From assembly GCF_000377345.1 (NCBI RefSeq), contig NZ_KB898044.1, positions 1 to 64,000 of the forward strand: DNA of 64,000 bases, read 5' to 3'. The notes below the pieces were generated by a model. It was not told the origin of the DNA, did not search any database, and saw only the letters and a program-made list of their open reading frames with translations. Source of the stretch: Thioalkalivibrio sp. ALJ16 (GTDB lineage: Bacteria; Pseudomonadota; Gammaproteobacteria; Ectothiorhodospirales; Ectothiorhodospiraceae). The position numbers and the translations under genes are program-made. How positions within the stretch are numbered: the stretch's first letter is position 1; every line of letters begins with the position of its first letter. This document shows, piece by piece, positions 1-57,647 of this stretch.

Positions 1-1019
<1,019 letters not shown>

Positions 1020-1086
1020 CTCTCGTTTCCCCGGATCGTGACGCTAAAACACAACAGCGACGCAGGTTGTACGCTGACATTAAATA

Positions 1087-1162
<76 letters not shown>

Positions 1163-1217
1163 CGATACTGCCGCCAGGGCCTTTCCCGCCTTGTTGCGGG
1201 CCAGAACTGGCCGGATC

Positions 1218-1291
<74 letters not shown>

Positions 1292-1346
1292 AGAACCCTG
1301 GCTTACCAACCACCGCCCGCTACAGGCCGCTGGCTTGAAAACCCGA

Positions 1347-1431
1347 TGGTGGAGGGAGGAGGATTCGAACCTCCGAAGGCTGAGCCAGCAGATTTACAGT
1401 CTGCCCCCGTTGACCGCTTGGGTATCCCTCC
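1347..1431 (-). tRNA. tRNA-Tyr (anticodon GTA)
   Basis: An 85-nt class II tRNA on the minus strand. The acceptor stem is GGAGGGA/TCCCTCC, the anticodon stem-loop carries GTA (CAGACTGTAAATCTG), and the long variable arm typical of tRNA-Tyr is present. The T-arm is GGTTCGAATCC and CCA is encoded. It is the first gene of the tRNA-tuf transcription unit. Confidence 0.97.
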
Positions 1432-1446
1432 TCGATCAAGCCGCGT

Positions 1447-1476
1447 ATTCTGGACCAGCGCGAACCGCAGCGTCAA
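1447..1476 (-). promoter_or_regulatory. Probable sigma70 promoter of the tRNA-tuf operon
   Basis: On the minus strand TTGACG (complement of 1471-1476) and CAGAAT (complement of 1447-1452) are separated by 18 bp. The mature tRNA-Tyr 5' end lies 15 bp downstream of the -10. A GC-rich discriminator follows, as is usual for stable-RNA promoters. The call rests on consensus match and position only. Confidence 0.55.
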
Positions 1477-1654
1477 GCACCTCCCGCGAGCAAAACCCGG
1501 ATTGCGGCACATGCCCGCAAACGCCTTGTGTTTGGTGGGGTTGATTCCTATGATCGAGGTGCACTCGGGGCGAGCGCCCGTCCGCGGCGCGTTTCCCTTC
1601 CAACGCGGACGCACGTAGAGTGTGGAGCATCAACGCTTTTCGAAACTGAGGCCC

Positions 1655-3370
1655 ATGGCGAACACCACTACGGCACCGCGGCTCCCCGGCTTGGCGAAGC
1701 GTCTGGTCGAGGGCGGCCTGATCGCGGAAGACATTGCCTCGCAACTGGTCGAGGAGTCCCAGTCCCAGCAGACGCCACTGATGAGCCTGCTCTCCACCAA
1801 GGGCAAGGTCGCCGAGGCGCGCCTGGCGGAGGCAGCGGCCGAGGAGTTCGGGCTGCCGGTACTGGATCTGGGCTGCTTCGACCCGGACCTGCTGCCGAAG
1901 GATCACCTCAATGAAAAGTTGATCCAAAAGCACCACGCACTGCCCCTGATGGTGCGGGGCAATCGCCTCTACATCGCGGTCTCGGACCCGACCAACCTTG
2001 GCGCCACCGACGAGTTCAAGTTCGCCACCGGGATGCCAGTGGAGGCCGTGCTGGTCGAGCCGCACAAGCTCGATCGCATGATCGACAGCGCCCTGAGCGC
2101 CGCCTCCTCGCTGATGGACGACCTCGGTGATGACGGGCTGGACAGCCTGGCGATCGAATCCGGCGAGGACGACAAGGACAGCGGGGACACGGCCGACGGC
2201 GCCGACGATGCCCCGGTGGTGCGCTTCGTCAACAAGCTGTTGATGGACGCGATCAACCGCAAAGCCTCGGACATCCACCTCGAGCCGTTCGAGAAGGACT
2301 TCCGCGTGCGCTTCCGGATCGATGGCGTACTGCACGAGGTGGCGCACCCGCCGACTTCGCTGGCCCCGCGGATCACCGCCCGCGTGAAGGTCATGTCGCG
2401 CATGGACATCGCCGAACGCCGGGTGCCGCAGGACGGGCGCATCAAGCTGAAGCTCTCGCGCACTCGCGCGATCGACTTCCGTGTCAGCTCCCTGCCGACG
2501 CTGTATGGCGAAAAGATCGTGATGCGTATCCTCGACCCGAGCAGTGCCTCGCTCGGGATCGACCAGCTCGGCTACGAGCAGCATCAGAAAGAGGCCTATC
2601 TCAAGGCCCTGAGTCGACCCTACGGCATGATCCTGGTCACCGGCCCGACCGGCTCGGGCAAGACCGTGTCCCTGTACACCGGGCTCGGCATTCTGAACAC
2701 CGCGGACCGCAACATCTCCACCGCCGAGGACCCGTCGGAAATCAACATGCCCGGGGTCAACCAGGTCAACGTAAATCCGAAGGTCGGCCTGACCTTCGCA
2801 AGCGCGCTGCGCGCCTTCCTGCGCCAGGACCCGGACGTGATCATGGTCGGGGAAATCCGCGACCTTGAAACCGCCGAGATCGCGATCAAGGCGGCCCAGA
2901 CCGGCCACCTCGTGCTGTCGACGCTGCACACCAACGACGCACCCCAGACCCTGACCCGCCTGGCGAACATGGGCGTGCCGCCCTACAACATCGCTTCCTC
3001 GATCCTGCTGATCATTGCCCAGCGCCTCGCACGGCGGCTGTGCCCGAACTGCAAGGAACGCGAAGACCTCCCCGAGGAGGTCCTGCGCAAGGAAGGCTTT
3101 ACCGACGCCGACATCCAGGCCGGGGTCACGGCGTATCGGGCAGTGGGCTGCGATCAGTGCACCAACGGTTACAAGGGTCGGCTGGGGATCTACCAGGTCA
3201 TGCCGATCAGCGAGGAGATGCAGCGCGGCATCCTCGAGGGATACAACTCCATGCAGCTCGCGGAGCAGGCAGAAAAAGAAGGGATCGAAGACCTGCGCCG
3301 CGCCGGTCTGATGAAGGTAATGGCGGGGCTGACCAGCCTCGAGGAAGTCAATCGCGTGACCAAGGACTAG
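1655..3370 (+). CDS. pilB: Type IV pilus assembly ATPase PilB
   Basis: Cytoplasmic hexameric ATPase that powers pilus extension. At 571 aa it has the family's usual length when started at ATG 1655 (MANTTTAPRLPG). An in-frame GTG at 1622 would add 11 residues without a good ribosome site. An N-terminal MshEN/T2SSE-N-type domain lies before about residue 150. The T2SSE ATPase domain holds Walker A GPTGSGKT at 330-337, an Asp/Glu-box region and the LSTLHTNDA segment. A zinc tetracysteine follows (CPNC 463-466, CDQC 499-502), typical of PilB/GspE. It is followed by pilC and pilD; no pilin gene is present, so pilA must lie elsewhere. Confidence 0.97.
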   Translation: MANTTTAPRLPGLAKRLVEGGLIAEDIASQLVEESQSQQTPLMSLLSTKGKVAEARLAEAAAEEFGLPVLDLGCFDPDLLPKDHLNEKLIQKHHALPLMVRGNRLYIAVSDPTNLGATDEFKFATGMPVEAVLVEPHKLDRMIDSALSAASSLMDDLGDDGLDSLAIESGEDDKDSGDTADGADDAPVVRFVNKLLMDAINRKASDIHLEPFEKDFRVRFRIDGVLHEVAHPPTSLAPRITARVKVMSRMDIAERRVPQDGRIKLKLSRTRAIDFRVSSLPTLYGEKIVMRILDPSSASLGIDQLGYEQHQKEAYLKALSRPYGMILVTGPTGSGKTVSLYTGLGILNTADRNISTAEDPSEINMPGVNQVNVNPKVGLTFASALRAFLRQDPDVIMVGEIRDLETAEIAIKAAQTGHLVLSTLHTNDAPQTLTRLANMGVPPYNIASSILLIIAQRLARRLCPNCKEREDLPEEVLRKEGFTDADIQAGVTAYRAVGCDQCTNGYKGRLGIYQVMPISEEMQRGILEGYNSMQLAEQAEKEGIEDLRRAGLMKVMAGLTSLEEVNRVTKD

Positions 3371-3413
3371 TGCCGCAGCAGGCACAGGTCACCAGCTACA
3401 GGGGGACAGGGGG

Positions 3414-4625
3414 ATGGCCGACTCCGGGACAATCTACACCTGGGAAGGACTGAACAAGAACGGCAACCGGGTCAAGGGCGAGACGCCGGCCGACAACGAG
3501 GCCGTCGCGCGCGCCGAGCTGCGCAAGAACGGCATCAACGTCACCAAGATCCGCAAGAAGCCGAAATCGCTGCTGTCTGCCGGCAGCAAGAAGATCGTGC
3601 CGGCGGATATCGCCTACTTCCTCCGCCAGATGACCACCATGCTGCAGTCCGGTGTGCCGCTGGTGCAGGCCTTCGAGATCGTCGGCCGCGGGAATGAAAA
3701 ACCCGCGATGCGCGATCTCGTGCTCAAGCTAAAGGCCGATGTGGAAGGCGGCGAGACCTTCGCCAAGGCCCTCGCCAAGCATCCGAAATACTTCGATGAC
3801 CTGGTCACCAACCTGGTCGAGGCCGGCGAGCAGGCGGGGACACTGGAAACCCTGCTGGACAAGATCGCCACCTACAAGGAAAAGACCGAGGCCCTGAAGG
3901 CCAAGATCAAGAAGGCCCTGTTCTACCCGGCCGCGGTTATCGTCGTCGCGATCGTGGTGACGGCCATCCTGCTGATCTACGTGGTCCCGCAGTTCGAGGC
4001 CCTGTTCCAGGGCTTCGGGGCCGACCTCCCCGTATTCACCCGCATGGTGGTCGATCTCTCGGAGTTCACCCAAAGCTGGTGGTGGGCCATCCTCGGCGTG
4101 ATGGTCGCGATCGGATTCATCTTCGTGCAGGCCAAACGGCGTTCGCCGCGCTTCGCGCGTTTTCTCGACATCATCATCCTGAAGGCCCCGGCCTTCGGCC
4201 CGATCCTGCGCAAGGCCGCCATCGCACGCTTCGCACGCACCCTGGCCACCATGTTCTCCGCCGGTGTCCCGCTGGTGGATGCGCTGACCTCGGTCTCCGG
4301 CGCCACCGGCAACGCGGTCTACCGCGAGGCGACGCTGCGCATGCGCGACGAAACCGAGGCCGGCGGCCAGCTGCAGTGGTCCATGCGCAATACCGCCGTC
4401 TTTCCCAACATGGTGGTACAGATGGTCGCCATCGGGGAAGAATCCGGCTCCCTGGACTCCATGCTCTCCAAGGTCGCCGACTTCTACGAAGAAGAGGTCG
4501 ACAACGCCGTGGACAGCCTGTCCAGCCTGCTGGAACCGCTGATCATGGTCGTCCTGGGCGTGCTGGTCGGTGGCCTGGTCATCGCCATGTACCTGCCGAT
4601 CTTCCAGATGGGCCAGGTGATCTAG
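3414..4625 (+). CDS. pilC: Type IV pilus inner-membrane platform protein PilC
   Basis: GspF/PilC-family polytopic protein that couples the PilB motor to pilin assembly. At 403 aa it has the normal family length. It shows two repeated T2SSF domains (roughly residues 70-195 and 270-395), each beginning with a cytoplasmic helical region and ending in hydrophobic segments (near 170-190, 220-240 and 370-390). The start ATG is preceded by an extended AGGGGGACAGGGGG ribosome site. It lies 43 bp after pilB and 3 bp before pilD, so the three are clearly one operon. Confidence 0.97.
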   Translation: MADSGTIYTWEGLNKNGNRVKGETPADNEAVARAELRKNGINVTKIRKKPKSLLSAGSKKIVPADIAYFLRQMTTMLQSGVPLVQAFEIVGRGNEKPAMRDLVLKLKADVEGGETFAKALAKHPKYFDDLVTNLVEAGEQAGTLETLLDKIATYKEKTEALKAKIKKALFYPAAVIVVAIVVTAILLIYVVPQFEALFQGFGADLPVFTRMVVDLSEFTQSWWWAILGVMVAIGFIFVQAKRRSPRFARFLDIIILKAPAFGPILRKAAIARFARTLATMFSAGVPLVDALTSVSGATGNAVYREATLRMRDETEAGGQLQWSMRNTAVFPNMVVQMVAIGEESGSLDSMLSKVADFYEEEVDNAVDSLSSLLEPLIMVVLGVLVGGLVIAMYLPIFQMGQVI

Positions 4626-4628
4626 GCC

Positions 4629-5498
4629 ATGCTGGCCGAGACCGGCACGCAACTGGGCGCCTGGGCCCTGCCGATCGCCGGGGTTTTCGGGCTGCTGATC
4701 GGCAGTTTCCTGAACGTAGTCATCGCGCGCCTGCCAGTGATGCTGGAACGCGAGTGGGAGCACGAGGCACGTGCGATCCTGGAGCACCCGCCGGCGGAGG
4801 ATGCGGGCCGCGAGCCCTTTGACCTGCTGCGGCCGCGCTCGCGCTGCCCGCAGTGCCAGCGCCCGATCCGCGCGCTGGAAAACATCCCCCTGCTCAGCTT
4901 CCTGTTCCTGCGCGGGCGCTGTCCCGGCTGCGGCAACCGCATCAGCTGGCAGTACCCGGCGGTCGAGGCCCTGACCGCGCTGCTGTTCATCGTCACGATC
5001 TGGCAGCTGGGGCCGGACGCCGCCGGACTGCTGGCGCTGGTCTTTACCGCGGTGCTGGTCGCCGCCGCCGGCATCGATGCCCGCACCACCCTGCTGCCGG
5101 ACCAGCTCACGCTGCCCCTGCTGTGGCTGGGGCTGCTGGTCAATATCCCCGGCACCTTCACCGACCTGCAGTCCGCCGTCATCGGGGCCGCGGCCGGCTA
5201 CCTGACGCTGTGGCTGATCTTCCACGGATTCCGCCTGCTGACCGGCAAGGAGGGAATGGGCTTCGGCGACTTCAAGCTCCTGGCCGCGCTTGGCGCCTGG
5301 CTGGGCTGGCAGGCCCTGCCGGTGATCCTGCTGCTGGCCTCCCTGGTTGGCGCGGTGGTCGGCATCGCCCTGATCCTGCTGCGTGGGCGCGATCGCAACA
5401 TCCCGATCCCGTTCGGCCCCTACCTGGCCGCCGCCGGTTGGCTGACGCTGATCTGGGGCGATCAACTGCTGGCCCTCTACTTCCCTCAGGGCCTGTAG
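4629..5498 (+). CDS. pilD: Prepilin leader peptidase / N-methyltransferase PilD
   Basis: Inner-membrane bifunctional aspartyl protease that cleaves prepilin leaders and methylates the new N terminus. The 289-aa protein shows the family's N-terminal GSFLNVVIARLP block and a cytoplasmic zinc site of two CxxC pairs (C73/C76 and C98/C101), as needed for methyltransferase activity. The two catalytic aspartates are D150 (GIDARTTLLPD) and D214 (GFGDFKLLAALGAWLG). Multiple hydrophobic helices fill the C-terminal half. It is coupled to pilC (3 bp upstream) and coaE (10 bp downstream), the order seen in Pseudomonas. Confidence 0.97.
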   Translation: MLAETGTQLGAWALPIAGVFGLLIGSFLNVVIARLPVMLEREWEHEARAILEHPPAEDAGREPFDLLRPRSRCPQCQRPIRALENIPLLSFLFLRGRCPGCGNRISWQYPAVEALTALLFIVTIWQLGPDAAGLLALVFTAVLVAAAGIDARTTLLPDQLTLPLLWLGLLVNIPGTFTDLQSAVIGAAAGYLTLWLIFHGFRLLTGKEGMGFGDFKLLAALGAWLGWQALPVILLLASLVGAVVGIALILLRGRDRNIPIPFGPYLAAAGWLTLIWGDQLLALYFPQGL

Positions 5499-53592: not shown

Positions 53593-53627
53593 CCGCCTCC
53601 TGACGCGGGTAGGAAACATCCTGCAGC

Positions 53628-53711
53628 CGTAGGGTGCCGTTGAGCGCAGCGAAACGCACCACTCCCTGCACAGCCCGAACCCCGATGCGATTCGCTTCGC
53701 TCATCGCATCC
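53628..53711. repeat. Probable dispersed intergenic repeat with internal palindrome
   Basis: The segment carries GTAGGGTGCCGTTGAGCGCA, followed by AGCGAAACGCACC and a hairpin GATGCGA...TCGCATC at 53684-53710. From memory, very similar segments recur between genes in many gammaproteobacterial chromosomes. It sits between two convergent 3' ends. Only one clear copy is in this window, so the repeat status needs genome comparison. Confidence 0.45.
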
Positions 53712-53745
53712 TGCGACGCAGCGACTGGCGGACTCTCGTTACCAA

Positions 53746-55230
53746 TCAGGGCGCGGCGCGGTGACGACGGGCGGCGTCGAGGCGGCGGACGAAGTCCTGC
53801 ATCAGGGTGGTGTAGAGCGTTTCGCCGAGGACCTTGTCCTCGATGCCGGCGTCGAGGTTGGGGTTGTCGTTGACCTCGATGACCATCACGCCGCGCGGGG
53901 TCTGCTTGAGATCGACGCCGTAGAGGCCATTGCCGATCAGGTTGGCGGCCTTGACGGCCGTCTTGACCACGGCGGCGGGCACATCCGCCAGCGGCAGTGT
54001 GCGGAAGCCGCCCTCGCGCGGGCCGCCCTTGGCGTCGTGGTTGACGATCTGCCAGTGCTTGCGCGACATCAGGTACTGCGAGGCGTACAGCGGCTGGCGG
54101 TTGAGCACGCCGATGCGCCAGTCGAACTCGGTGTAGACGAACTCCTGGGCGAGGATCAGATCGCTCTCCTTCAGCAGGCGTCGGGCGATGGATTCCAGCT
54201 CCGCGCGGTCGTTCGCCTTGAACACCCCGCGCGAGAAGCTGCCATCCGGGATCTTGAGCACCACGGGATAACCGATCTGTTCCTCCGCGCGCAGGATGGT
54301 CTCGCGGTTGAGGATCACGGTCTTTGGAGTCGGCACGCGATGGGCGGCGAGGCGCTCGGCCAGGTAGACCTTGTTGGTGCAGCGCAGGATGGAGTCGGCG
54401 TCGTCGATCACCACCATGCCCTCGGCCTCGGCCTTGCGCGCGAAGCGATAGGTGTAGTGGTCGATCGCGGTGGTCTCGCGGATGAACAGGGCGTCGAACT
54501 CCGCCAGCCGCGGCAGATCACGCGCCTGGATCAGCTCGACATCCATCCCCTGCTCCTGCCCGGCGCGGGCGAAGCGCTTGAGCGTGGCCGGCGTGGACGG
54601 GGCCATCGCCTCGTCCGGGTTGTGCAGGATAGCCAACTCGTAGCGCGCGCTACGCGCCCCACGGCGGCGCCGCCACGGCCTGGAGAGATAGCGCTCCAGC
54701 GCGGCGAAGAAGGCCGGCTCCTGCTCGGGCTCCAGCGTATTCAGCGCGAACGGGCGCAGGGCGAGGATCTGCCAGCGCCCCTGCAGCCGGAACTCCACCC
54801 GGAACATCGGCGCGGGGAACAGGGCGAACAGCTGCGCGGCGATCTCCTGCAGCGCCGGCTCGTTGCACTGGCCGAACAGCACGGTCAGCTCCAGGCGCTC
54901 GGGCTGCGCGCCCTGGCGGCTGCGGCCCAGGACGCGCGCCACGCGCTCGTCCAGAACCTCGGTATCCAGGCTGTAGATGGACTTGCGCGACAGGTCCTGC
55001 AGGGTACGCACGCTGGGGATCACCCGGTGCCCGCGCGCCTCCGCCAGCAGCGAGCCGTAGTACCCGGCGGACAGGTAACGCTGGCTGCGGCACAGGTTGA
55101 TCACGCGCAGGGTGGCCGGGTCGTCGGCGGCCAGTCCGCGCAGGTAGTCGTCGATGACCATGACCGGCAGGTCGGGGAAGTGCGGCTTCCAGTCCGCCCG
55201 ACGCTCGACCAGGATGCGGTGCTCAGGCAT
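53746..55230 (-). CDS. RLAN-domain RimK-like ATP-grasp ligase
   Basis: Predicted carboxylate-amine (peptide-bond-forming) ligase of unknown substrate. The 494-aa protein from ATG 55230 has an N-terminal alpha+beta RLAN-type domain (about 25-160: VMVIDDYLRG, INLCRSQRYLSAGYYGSLLAEARGHRVIPS). The C-terminal RimK-like ATP-grasp domain (about 240-485) has KIPDGSFSRGVFK, LAQEFVYTEFDWRIGVL and metal/ATP residues D440, E452 and N454 (GLYGVDLKQ, IEVNDNPN). The gene overlaps the upstream GNAT-peptidase gene by 8 bp. RLAN proteins are known to co-occur with exactly such GNAT-papain fusions, and a peptide synthesis role has been predicted. Confidence 0.9.
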   Translation of the reverse strand: MPEHRILVERRADWKPHFPDLPVMVIDDYLRGLAADDPATLRVINLCRSQRYLSAGYYGSLLAEARGHRVIPSVRTLQDLSRKSIYSLDTEVLDERVARVLGRSRQGAQPERLELTVLFGQCNEPALQEIAAQLFALFPAPMFRVEFRLQGRWQILALRPFALNTLEPEQEPAFFAALERYLSRPWRRRRGARSARYELAILHNPDEAMAPSTPATLKRFARAGQEQGMDVELIQARDLPRLAEFDALFIRETTAIDHYTYRFARKAEAEGMVVIDDADSILRCTNKVYLAERLAAHRVPTPKTVILNRETILRAEEQIGYPVVLKIPDGSFSRGVFKANDRAELESIARRLLKESDLILAQEFVYTEFDWRIGVLNRQPLYASQYLMSRKHWQIVNHDAKGGPREGGFRTLPLADVPAAVVKTAVKAANLIGNGLYGVDLKQTPRGVMVIEVNDNPNLDAGIEDKVLGETLYTTLMQDFVRRLDAARRHRAAP

Positions 55231-56392
55231 GCCCGCCCTCCGCCGCACGACGCGGGCCAACGATCACCGCCGCCTGCAGCCCCGCGCGGCCGTAGCGCGC
55301 CATGCGCTCGAAGTCCGCACGCGCGATCGGCATGTTCACCGAGTCCACCGCACGTTCGCCCTGCTCGGCATCCACGAACGGGTCGTGCACGTAGACAAAG
55401 CGCTCGTCGAAGCCGGTCACCGTGACCCAGTGCGGGAAGCGCTCGGCATACAGCCGCACGCTGCTGATCAGCACCACCGGTACCCCGCCCTCGGCAAAGC
55501 GCGCCTCCAGCTGGGACACGTTCACCGGGCCATGCACCACCGGCACCGCCAGCTGTTCCAGCTCCTCGACCATGTCCTCCTGCACCAGCTGCATGACCTC
55601 CTTCTTCTCCGTGCTGCGCACGGAATCCGCGAAGGCCACGCCGCGATCGCGCACCAGCAGCTCCACCTCGAACCCGCGATGGGCCGCCGCCAGCGCGAGC
55701 CCGTACGGCCCGCAGCCGCCGTGGCCCGAGGTCATGAAGATCGTGGTGGCATCGCGCCACAGGCGCAGCTCCAGGCGCCGGTCCAGCTTCAGTGCCGGGT
55801 CCACTGCGCGCATCGCCATCATCAGCGCGGCCGGGCCGCAGGTGAATTCCAGCGTCTGCGCGTAGTACGGCGCGCGCACCAGCGCCGGATCGGGCCCGGG
55901 CGCCAGCGACTTCTGCAACCGCAGGGCATCCATGTGGTCCTCGTAGTAGTCGTCGATGGTGCCGAAGTCGCGATACCCGAGCCCGCGGAACAGGGCCAGG
56001 CTGGCTGCATTGTCGCGCCGCACCTCCAGGCGCAGATCGGTCCGCCCGTGCTGGCGCGCCGCGTCTTCCGCCGCCTCCACCAGACGCCGCCCCAGCCCCT
56101 GGCCGCGCGCCCGCGCGCTGACCGCAATCGAGTACAACCGCGCCAGCGAGGTACCACGGCTGAACAGCAGCATCACGTAGCCGAGCAGGCCCTCCCCGCC
56201 GGGATCCTCCACCACCAGCGTAGCCGCATGTCCGCGCGTGAGCAGGTAGCGAAACTGCCGCCGCGAGATGCGATCGATCTCGAACGCCGCATCCTCCAGC
56301 GCCACCAGCGCCTCCAGATCCTCCAGCGTGGCCGGACGGATCAAGGGCGATTCTGCGGCGGGCGCGACCCGTTGCTTGACCTGCTGGCTCAC
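55223..56392 (-). CDS. GNAT acetyltransferase fused to a papain/C39-like peptidase
   Basis: The 389-aa product begins at GTG 56392 with GGGAGAG upstream. Residues ~16-155 are a GNAT (RimI-like) domain with acetyl-CoA loop RARGQGLGRR at 94-103. Residues ~172-380 are a papain/C39-like peptidase domain. Its likely triad is C185 (TCGPAALMM), H321 (PHWVTVTG) and D337 (HDPF). No signal peptide or membrane segment, so it acts in the cytoplasm. It is coupled to the RLAN ATP-grasp gene downstream. Probable roles are acetylating an amine and cutting or condensing a peptide made by the ligase; product unknown. Confidence 0.88.
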   Translation of the reverse strand: MSQQVKQRVAPAAESPLIRPATLEDLEALVALEDAAFEIDRISRRQFRYLLTRGHAATLVVEDPGGEGLLGYVMLLFSRGTSLARLYSIAVSARARGQGLGRRLVEAAEDAARQHGRTDLRLEVRRDNAASLALFRGLGYRDFGTIDDYYEDHMDALRLQKSLAPGPDPALVRAPYYAQTLEFTCGPAALMMAMRAVDPALKLDRRLELRLWRDATTIFMTSGHGGCGPYGLALAAAHRGFEVELLVRDRGVAFADSVRSTEKKEVMQLVQEDMVEELEQLAVPVVHGPVNVSQLEARFAEGGVPVVLISSVRLYAERFPHWVTVTGFDERFVYVHDPFVDAEQGERAVDSVNMPIARADFERMARYGRAGLQAAVIVGPRRAAEGGHA

Positions 56393-56692
56393 GCTCCTCT
56401 CCCGGCGGCGGCCCGATCTCCATCGTAGCGCAACCACCAGGCGCCAATAGCCCGCCCCAGCAGGAATATTCACCGGTGACGAGACCCCGACTAACGCAGT
56501 GCCCCCGCTAGTTCGTCCAGGCGACCGATGATGGCCGTGCCGCCCCCCCAGGGGCCGAACAGAGCCCGCCGTATATTCCCTCCTGCATGTAGCCACCAAG
56601 CCTCCATCTCGCACTGCCAGCCGCAAAATGCCAGTATGAGAACTCCGCTTGCGCCGGTCATCGCCCCCCAGCGATACCACAAGGATGGTGAC
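56393..56692. other. Divergent intergenic region, GNAT-peptidase versus antitoxin
   Basis: A 300-bp stretch with no supportable gene, containing the 5' regions of two divergent units. A TATATT at 56572-56577 could be a -10 for the antitoxin but has no convincing -35. The base composition is less GC-biased than the flanking core genes. Confidence 0.4.
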
Positions 56693-56917
56693 ATGAAGAT
56701 CAAAGACCTCATTGACGAAGCCGAGTCCCTTCCCGTGGAAGAGCGCGCTCTGATGGTCGATTCCCTCCTGCGCAGCCTGAACCCGCCCGATGCGGGCGTG
56801 GACCGCAAATGGGCAGAGGTCTCGCGGAAACGCCTGGAAGAGATCCGCTCGGGCACAGTCGAAGCGATTCCGAGCGAACAGGTCTTCGAGAGGATATGGA
56901 GCCGGTTTGAACGATGA
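56693..56917 (+). CDS. Addiction-module antitoxin (Unstab_antitox family)
   Basis: The 74-aa product (MKIKDLIDEAESLPVEERAL...) matches the short helical antitoxins paired with RelE/ParE toxins: LPxxER-A-L-x-D-SLLRSLNPP near residues 13-32 and W-x-E-x-x-RR-xEI-xSG near 39-54. AAGGA lies 7 nt upstream of the ATG. The stop overlaps the toxin start as ATGA. The toxin partner is broken, so the antitoxin may now be an orphan. Confidence 0.88.
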   Translation: MKIKDLIDEAESLPVEERALMVDSLLRSLNPPDAGVDRKWAEVSRKRLEEIRSGTVEAIPSEQVFERIWSRFER

Positions 56918-57213
56918 GTTTTCGCTTTCACCCGGAAGCGGAGCAAGAACTCACCGAGGCCGTTCAGTACTAAGAAGAAATCGAGCCCGGCCTCGGGAAC
57001 GATTTTGCAGTTGAAGTGTTTGCAGCGGTGCAACGCGCCATCGCCTACCCGCGTGCCTGGACCGTTCTGGAGGGCGAAGTGCGGCGCTCATTCGTGAAGC
57101 GGTTTCCGTATGGGGTTCTCTACGCAGAAGAGGACGGGGGCATCCTGATTCTCGCGGTCATGCACCTGCATCGCCACCCGGATTACTGGAAGGAACGCAC
57201 ACAGGCAGACTGA
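56914..57213 (+). pseudogene. RelE/ParE-family toxin, interrupted by an in-frame TAA at codon 20
   Basis: The frame opens MSFRFHPEAEQELTEAVQY and then meets TAA at 56971-56973. It continues in the same frame as EEIEPGLGNDFAVEVFAAV through FVKRFPYGVLYAEEDG to HRHPDYWKERTQAD and a stop at 57211-57213. Both halves fit one ~99-codon ParE/RelE toxin; the family usually has a second Tyr at the stop position (YYE), so one base change (TAC or TAT to TAA) explains it. The antitoxin directly upstream is intact. Sequencing error cannot be excluded. Confidence 0.88.
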
Positions 57214-57326
57214 CGACTGCTCCGCCGGACAGCGGCAGCCATGCGGCTGGCCAAGGATCTGGACATGCGGGTACGACACGGCACACTGAGTGCGATGTCC
57301 CGTCAATCGAAGCAATGGAGTCGTCG

Positions 57327-57647
57327 ATGACCATGCAGGAGACCATTACCCGGAAGCTGGATGAGCGCTTTGCGCCCGAGCATCTGGAGGTGGTGAACGA
57401 GAGCCACATGCACAACGTGCCGCCGGGCTCGGAGTCGCATTTCAAGGTGACGGTGGTGTCCGAGGCCTTTCGCGACCAGAAGCTGATCGCGCGGCACCGG
57501 CTGGTGAACCAGGCCCTGGCCGACGAGCTGGCCGGTGGCATCCACGCCCTGGCGCTGCACACGCTGGACCCGGACCAGTGGTTCGAGCGCGCCGGCAAGG
57601 TCGCCGACTCCCCGCCCTGCATGGGTGGCGACGGCGGCAAGGCCTGA
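57327..57647 (+). CDS. bolA: BolA family protein
   Basis: BolA proteins work with monothiol glutaredoxins in iron-sulfur handling and influence morphology and stress responses. The 106-aa protein from ATG 57327 (GGAG 6 nt upstream) shows ITRKLDERFAPEHLEVVNES, the H-N-V-P-PGSESHFKV loop and the RHRLVNQALADEL helix with the invariant RHR. The C-terminal IHALALHTLDPDQW matches the BolA end. It is followed closely by the phosphatase-superfamily gene. Confidence 0.95.
   Translation: MTMQETITRKLDERFAPEHLEVVNESHMHNVPPGSESHFKVTVVSEAFRDQKLIARHRLVNQALADELAGGIHALALHTLDPDQWFERAGKVADSPPCMGGDGGKA

Follow-up and report, generated by a model that had tools for sequence, protein, structure and literature searches.

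An RLAN ligase and GNAT-papain gene pair in Thioalkalivibrio sp. ALJ16 as a possible route to a small N-capped peptide

The window, which is the whole stretch of 64,000 nucleotides of Thioalkalivibrio sp. ALJ16 that was analysed, contains two adjacent genes, here called A and B (Table 1). Gene A begins with ATG and encodes 494 aa. It carries an N-terminal RLAN domain (PF14401, residues 26-175, 158 bits against a cut-off of 25) and a RimK-like ATP-grasp domain (PF08443, residues 285-459, 44 bits against a cut-off of 21). Gene B begins with GTG, encodes 389 aa, and fuses a GNAT domain (Acetyltransf_1, residues 47-140, 59 bits against a cut-off of 20.7) to a papain-like domain (DUF3335, PF11814, residues 175-378, 289 bits against a cut-off of 25). 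Where gene B starts is uncertain, because its frame continues open as far as 56680 and relatives do not share the first ~15 residues. The two frames overlap by 8 bp, which is consistent with a single transcript.

Table 1. Positions of the gene pair and of the segment that holds it, in window coordinates
Feature	Position	Strand	Basis
Gene A, RLAN + RimK/ArgX-like ATP-grasp ligase	53746..55230	minus	Pfam, AF2, fold search, residue conservation
Gene B, RimI/Ard1-type GNAT fused to DUF3335 papain-like domain	55223..56392	minus	Pfam, AF2, fold search, residue conservation
Overlap of the A and B frames, 8 bp	55223..55230	minus	sequence
Variable segment holding A, B and a toxin-antitoxin remnant	53595..57326		comparison with three genus genomes

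An earlier note on this DNA had proposed an RLAN domain on a RimK-like ATP-grasp enzyme, next to a GNAT domain fused to a papain-like peptidase. Profile searches of both proteins agree, with RLAN, ATP-grasp, GNAT and DUF3335 all scoring above their cut-offs. The metal residues that the note had named as intact in A (D440, E452, N454) are each present in 143/143 aligned relatives. Its C185-H321-D337 triad in B also held up: C185 and H321 are found in 110/110 aligned relatives, while position 337 is Asp in 102 and Glu in 8. The oxyanion-type Q179 is likewise present in all 110. The overlap of the frames is exactly as the note gave it and, judged by eye, neither N-terminus resembles a signal peptide, again as it had said. 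These domain matches and this residue conservation are far beyond what chance can account for, and both enzymes look active.

Structures were predicted with AF2 (mean pLDDT 88.6 for A and 93 for B), and the fold search returned matches for one half of each protein only, ATP-grasp in A and GNAT in B. The solved structures closest to the ATP-grasp part (residues ~197-486) are ArgX, LysX and RimK (Z 28-26), and those closest to the GNAT part (residues 15-165) are Ard1/RimI (Z 22.6, rmsd 1.5-1.6). Both proteins score below the cut-offs of the named families in this neighbourhood. A falls short of the RimK family (TIGR00768, 100 vs 143 bits), S6 ligase (NF007764, 40 vs 331 bits) and LysX (TIGR02144, 101 vs 276 bits). 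The GNAT domain of B falls short of RimI (TIGR01575, 67 vs 86 bits) and of N-acetylglutaminylglutamine synthetase (TIGR03103, 22 vs 569 bits), and its ligase is on a separate chain. A and B are not RimK and RimI themselves: elsewhere the host genome encodes its own RimI (115 bits), and another gene there is a strong RimK match (232 bits). Instead, A is assigned to RLAN by profile score, by fusion to an ATP-grasp domain with intact metal residues and by its GNAT-papain neighbour, and B to DUF3335 by profile score and its Cys-His-Asp residues. PADLOC found no defence family.

Such a gene pair was reportedly described by Iyer et al. 2009, who are said to have predicted a role in peptide synthesis and to be the source of PF14401. 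The window pair consists of the same two proteins in the same adjacency and shows no difference from it. It belongs, intact and unexceptional, to a family for which peptide synthesis was already predicted but which is uncharacterised: the literature searched reported no product of RLAN ligases and no functional study of this gene combination, and it covered DUF3335/PF11814 solely in a papain classification paper.

Within the genus, the A-B pair is an accessory module and not a core gene. RLAN was found in 14 of the 24 other genus genomes searched, some of which are incomplete. G021, G002 and G007 are three that lack it; there the region from the ACT-domain gene to bolA measures 0.5-2.1 kb and holds no trace of A or B. 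The corresponding interval in the window runs from about 53594, where the ACT-domain gene ends, to the start of the bolA region at 57327 (host genome: 2.76 Mb). Immediately upstream of gene B, and divergent from it, lies an antitoxin-like gene (PF09720, TIGR02574; segment 56696-57213, plus strand). The frame after it (57016-57213) resembles the end of a ParE/RelE-type toxin and has no intact start, so this toxin is probably broken.

The distribution of the two families was surveyed in 397 Pseudomonadota genomes. RLAN is present in 81, DUF3335 in 63, and both in 62 (Fisher p 3e-54, uncorrected for kinship). The association of RLAN with GNAT-papain fusions, given in the earlier note, holds, and 62/63 DUF3335 genomes carry RLAN. 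DUF3335 is absent from 19/81 RLAN genomes (about a quarter), although this does not equal the absence of any papain-like enzyme, since a C39-like protein of G385 escapes PF11814. In 18 of these 19 a stand-alone GNAT remains beside the ligase. A GNAT gene lies within 3 kb of the ligase, or is fused to it, in 62 of the 64 sample loci; the nearest partner is GNAT-DUF3335 in 39, a stand-alone GNAT in 22, a GNAT-ligase fusion in 1 and neither in 2. One genus has GNAT, RLAN and ATP-grasp domains in a single 659-aa frame, with frames of 660-667 aa in three of its species. The GNAT and the ligase are the core of the system and the DUF3335 papain arm is replaceable. The building, acetylating and trimming suggested in the earlier note name the steps fairly, yet these are not equal parts: GNAT and ligase are constant, while the papain arm is the one that goes missing.

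The GNAT tree, which is midpoint-rooted with several long branches and whose true root is not known, placed 101 of 102 DUF3335-fused GNATs together and most stand-alone GNATs outside. The stand-alone GNAT of one locus (L143) sits deep among the fused ones and thus records the loss of a papain domain. In 65 of 80 named loci B is found no more than 3 kb from A, in various layouts. In purple sulfur bacteria and Azospirillum B precedes A in tandem, in Pseudomonas and Marinobacter the genes are divergent, and in Methylophaga a DUF2817 gene is placed between them. The linkage outlasts these rearrangements, which speaks for a functional tie between A and B.

Some RLAN genes were seen in other surroundings. 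In one genome, three tandem RLAN ATP-grasp genes (L267, G535:C18, 6651-11469) have no adjoining GNAT, GCS2 or papain gene, and a fourth copy (L272) lies on a different contig. In Alcanivorax limicola (L071, ~390-4655) an RLAN gene follows what by eye is an apparent permuted ATP-grasp / alpha-E / transglutaminase-like module, and neither a GNAT nor a papain gene is close to it.

A variant operon has the order C39-like peptidase, RLAN ligase, GCS2, FGase, and no GNAT. It occurs in G385, in most of 20 further loci of its order, and in G028, where it is followed by a convergent DUF155 gene. Its C39 domain is related to DUF3335 (hhalign 90.8%, with Cys/His/Asp aligned). GCS2 enzymes form gamma-glutamyl amides of free amino acids, and the replacement of GNAT by GCS2 makes sense if the job of the GNAT is to cap an amino group. 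A relative of the ligase that lacks RLAN was found on 7 viral contigs. In 4 of them (L099, L101, L104, L105) a small GNAT gene overlaps it, which again marks GNAT plus ATP-grasp as the core. One phage ligase (L102) is flanked by terminase and portal genes, and another related one is near a baseplate-like gene.

Third genes were found by clustering all neighbours of the related loci. The earlier note had seen no substrate gene alongside the pair. This is true of the window. Loci related to it, however, conserve a third gene, which may be DUF2817, DUF155, aspartoacylase, ArgE, GCS2 or FGase. The neighbour comparison that the note had proposed yielded hydrolases and GCS2, but no conserved precursor ORF: small ORFs (22-95 aa) near the core of related loci are shared by close kin at most, and the largest small-ORF clusters coincide with ArgE loci and resemble overlapping frames. 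Amide/N-acyl hydrolases and small-molecule ligases make up most of the third genes. DUF2817 was found at 18 loci in several layouts, DUF155 at 10, and ArgE beside B at at least 15, all in one clade, so the ArgE linkage may reflect shared ancestry. In a Bacteriovoracaceae MAG (L077) an aspartoacylase gene (237 bits against an NCBI cut-off of 180) directly follows A. The description by Iyer et al. 2009 may not extend to the GNAT-only, GCS2/FGase, DUF2817/DUF155 and phage variants.

DUF2817 has HxxE, NR, H and E motifs and weak PDB profile matches to REP34, an AstE-like protein and MpaA; from these it has the look of an M14-like zinc hydrolase. Treating DUF2817, FGase and aspartoacylase as a single family was dropped, as profile comparison found no relation of DUF2817 to FGase or to aspartoacylase. 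DUF155 (the RMND1/Mrx10 family) stands beside RLAN or GNAT-DUF3335 genes at L042, L048, L091, L169, L175 and L186, and also at L187, L189, L191, L204 and L252. DUF155/RMND1 is known from mitochondrial translation; the literature searched yielded nothing useful on bacterial DUF155. Both DUF2817 and DUF155 are enriched in RLAN genomes, chiefly via one bacterial family, and outside it their co-occurrence with RLAN is weak (p 0.03 and p 0.009, respectively). The argument from these two genes rests on physical linkage. At L186, GNAT-DUF3335, DUF2817 and DUF155 are grouped, and a stand-alone GNAT with the RLAN ligase (L185) lies far away in the same genome; here the system splits into a synthetic half and a processing half.

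Other candidate partners were rejected. An apparent M14 carboxypeptidase beside Pseudomonas loci is by sequence an AraC-type regulator, and PF00246 had 2 tallied members, neither of them placed at a locus. CorA, cation-efflux and regulator genes that adjoin some loci seem to be lineage-specific or there by chance. In some Pseudomonas and relatives (L088, L094, L183) a CorA-like transporter gene lies right after the RLAN gene or overlaps it, its identity at L183 being supported by a Pfam match.

We favour, with confidence that is evenly balanced, an amide-ligation pathway that is cytoplasmic and non-ribosomal, in which A and B supply the synthetic core and a processing arm and the product is a small N-capped peptide, probably acidic. 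The GNAT domain would acetylate an alpha-amino group, as expected of the RimI/Ard1 class. The RLAN ATP-grasp enzyme would use ATP to turn a carboxylate into an acyl-phosphate and join it to the amino group of an amino acid; with ArgX, LysX and RimK as relatives, this would most likely be glutamate or another acidic one. The papain-like domain would cut an amide bond of the product, or less likely transfer it, for release or recycling, and lineage-specific neighbour hydrolases would also take the N-capped product apart. Analogy with N-acetyl-aspartyl-glutamate or N-acetylglutaminylglutamine amide makes an N-acetylated acidic di- or oligopeptide the likeliest product class, and in the variant operon a gamma-glutamyl unit would stand in place of the acetyl cap. 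The support consists of the intact catalytic residues, the constant linkage of GNAT and ligase with their fusion in one genus, the replaceable papain arm and the recurrent hydrolase neighbours.

Several known systems resemble this scheme in part. ArgX/LysX, the closest solved ligases to A (Z 28), add amino acids, and the logic of their carrier LysW also shields an amino group, but a small LysW-like carrier was not found and A is under the LysX cut-off. N-acetylglutaminylglutamine synthetase, a fusion of GNAT and ATP-grasp, shares the acetylate-and-ligate logic, with both activities in one system; its cut-off is far above the score of the window GNAT, and there is no asparagine-synthetase partner here. 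Animal NAA/NAAG metabolism (NAT8L, RIMKLA/B, aspartoacylase) combines a GNAT, a RimK-like ligase and an aspartoacylase, the last being the third gene seen in L077, and its likeness to the window system is by analogy alone.

The main rival reading, a serious one although we think it less likely, is a protein tag: the GNAT would acetylate a protein N-terminus, the RLAN ligase would extend a protein C-terminus and the papain domain would erase the tag. The known RimI/Ard1 enzymes place acetyl groups on protein N-termini, and protein carboxyl groups are the substrates of RimK, LysX and ArgX, which add glutamate or alpha-aminoadipate to them. RimI acts on ribosomal protein S18 and RimK on S6, and RimB removes the glutamates that RimK adds. 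By their modelled folds, a GNAT of the RimI/Ard1 kind and a ligase like RimK, LysX and ArgX would thus both suit a protein substrate: the best structural matches of the GNAT are Ard1 and RimI, and those of the ligase act on LysW or S6. RimK/RimB is also a documented write-and-erase pair of ATP-grasp ligase and protease (PMC12239564), a precedent for a ligase with an eraser. The window pair resembles it in its RimK-like ATP-grasp fold (Z 26-27) and in having, in the same locus, a protease that would undo the work of the ligase, but RimK is without RLAN or GNAT, RimB is a retropepsin, and A is under the RimK-family cut-offs. The recurrent DUF155/RMND1 neighbour and the position of related phage ligases, between terminase and portal genes or near a baseplate-like gene, also favour a protein substrate; further points against a small peptide are that profile searches found neither DUF2817 nor DUF155 in the host genome, and that DUF2817 is only weakly M14-like. 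Against the protein tag, the genome has its own RimI and strong RimK match elsewhere, and no conserved protein substrate gene is found near related loci. Two considerations favour the small N-capped peptide: aspartoacylase, ArgE, GCS2 and FGase all work on small molecules, and the pair has no conserved protein or precursor gene as a companion. The third genes tilt toward it, with a core-protein substrate possible.

It is unlikely that the papain-like domain is instead an acyltransferase, moving a capped acyl or peptidyl group, formed by the ligase, to another acceptor by the logic of BtrH or phytochelatin synthase. The best PDB profile matches of DUF3335 are BtrH N-terminal-domain proteins, but these are weak and partial (E 0.0095, 42 residues), and relations to Pfam C39_2 and GUCD1-like proteins are equally good. 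Gamma-glutamyl capping occurs in butirosin and glutathione chemistry, which the variant operon recalls by joining a papain-like protein, GCS2 and an ATP-grasp ligase; no acceptor gene was seen. A graspetide-like RiPP, in which a ribosomal precursor peptide is modified and the papain domain is a C39-type leader peptidase, would match the common RiPP pairing of ATP-grasp and C39-like peptidase genes (PMC8939145) but is very improbable, as the small ORFs near the core are unconserved beyond close kin and in the largest clusters look like overlapping frames, A and B leave no room between them, there is no C39 ABC transporter, and PF03412 had no match to the window protein.

RLAN is also present in named Pseudomonas, Marinobacter, Azospirillum and purple sulfur bacteria. 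We suggest, tentatively and with more doubt than belief, that a widespread cap-and-ligate pathway has RLAN ligases at its centre, and that its caps (acetyl by GNAT, gamma-glutamyl by GCS2) and its de-capping hydrolases can be exchanged. The pathway would make an undescribed acidic N-capped peptide in roughly a fifth of Pseudomonadota genomes, and phages would carry a stripped-down GNAT and ligase. If the small-peptide reading is true, a widespread small peptide has so far escaped notice, and the comparison points to two sufficient enzymes and to which amino acids to try first. The GCS2 variant and the phage pair are independent handles on the same product question. What gives the window pair its value is this comparison: it reduces the problem to two enzymes and a few candidate substrates.
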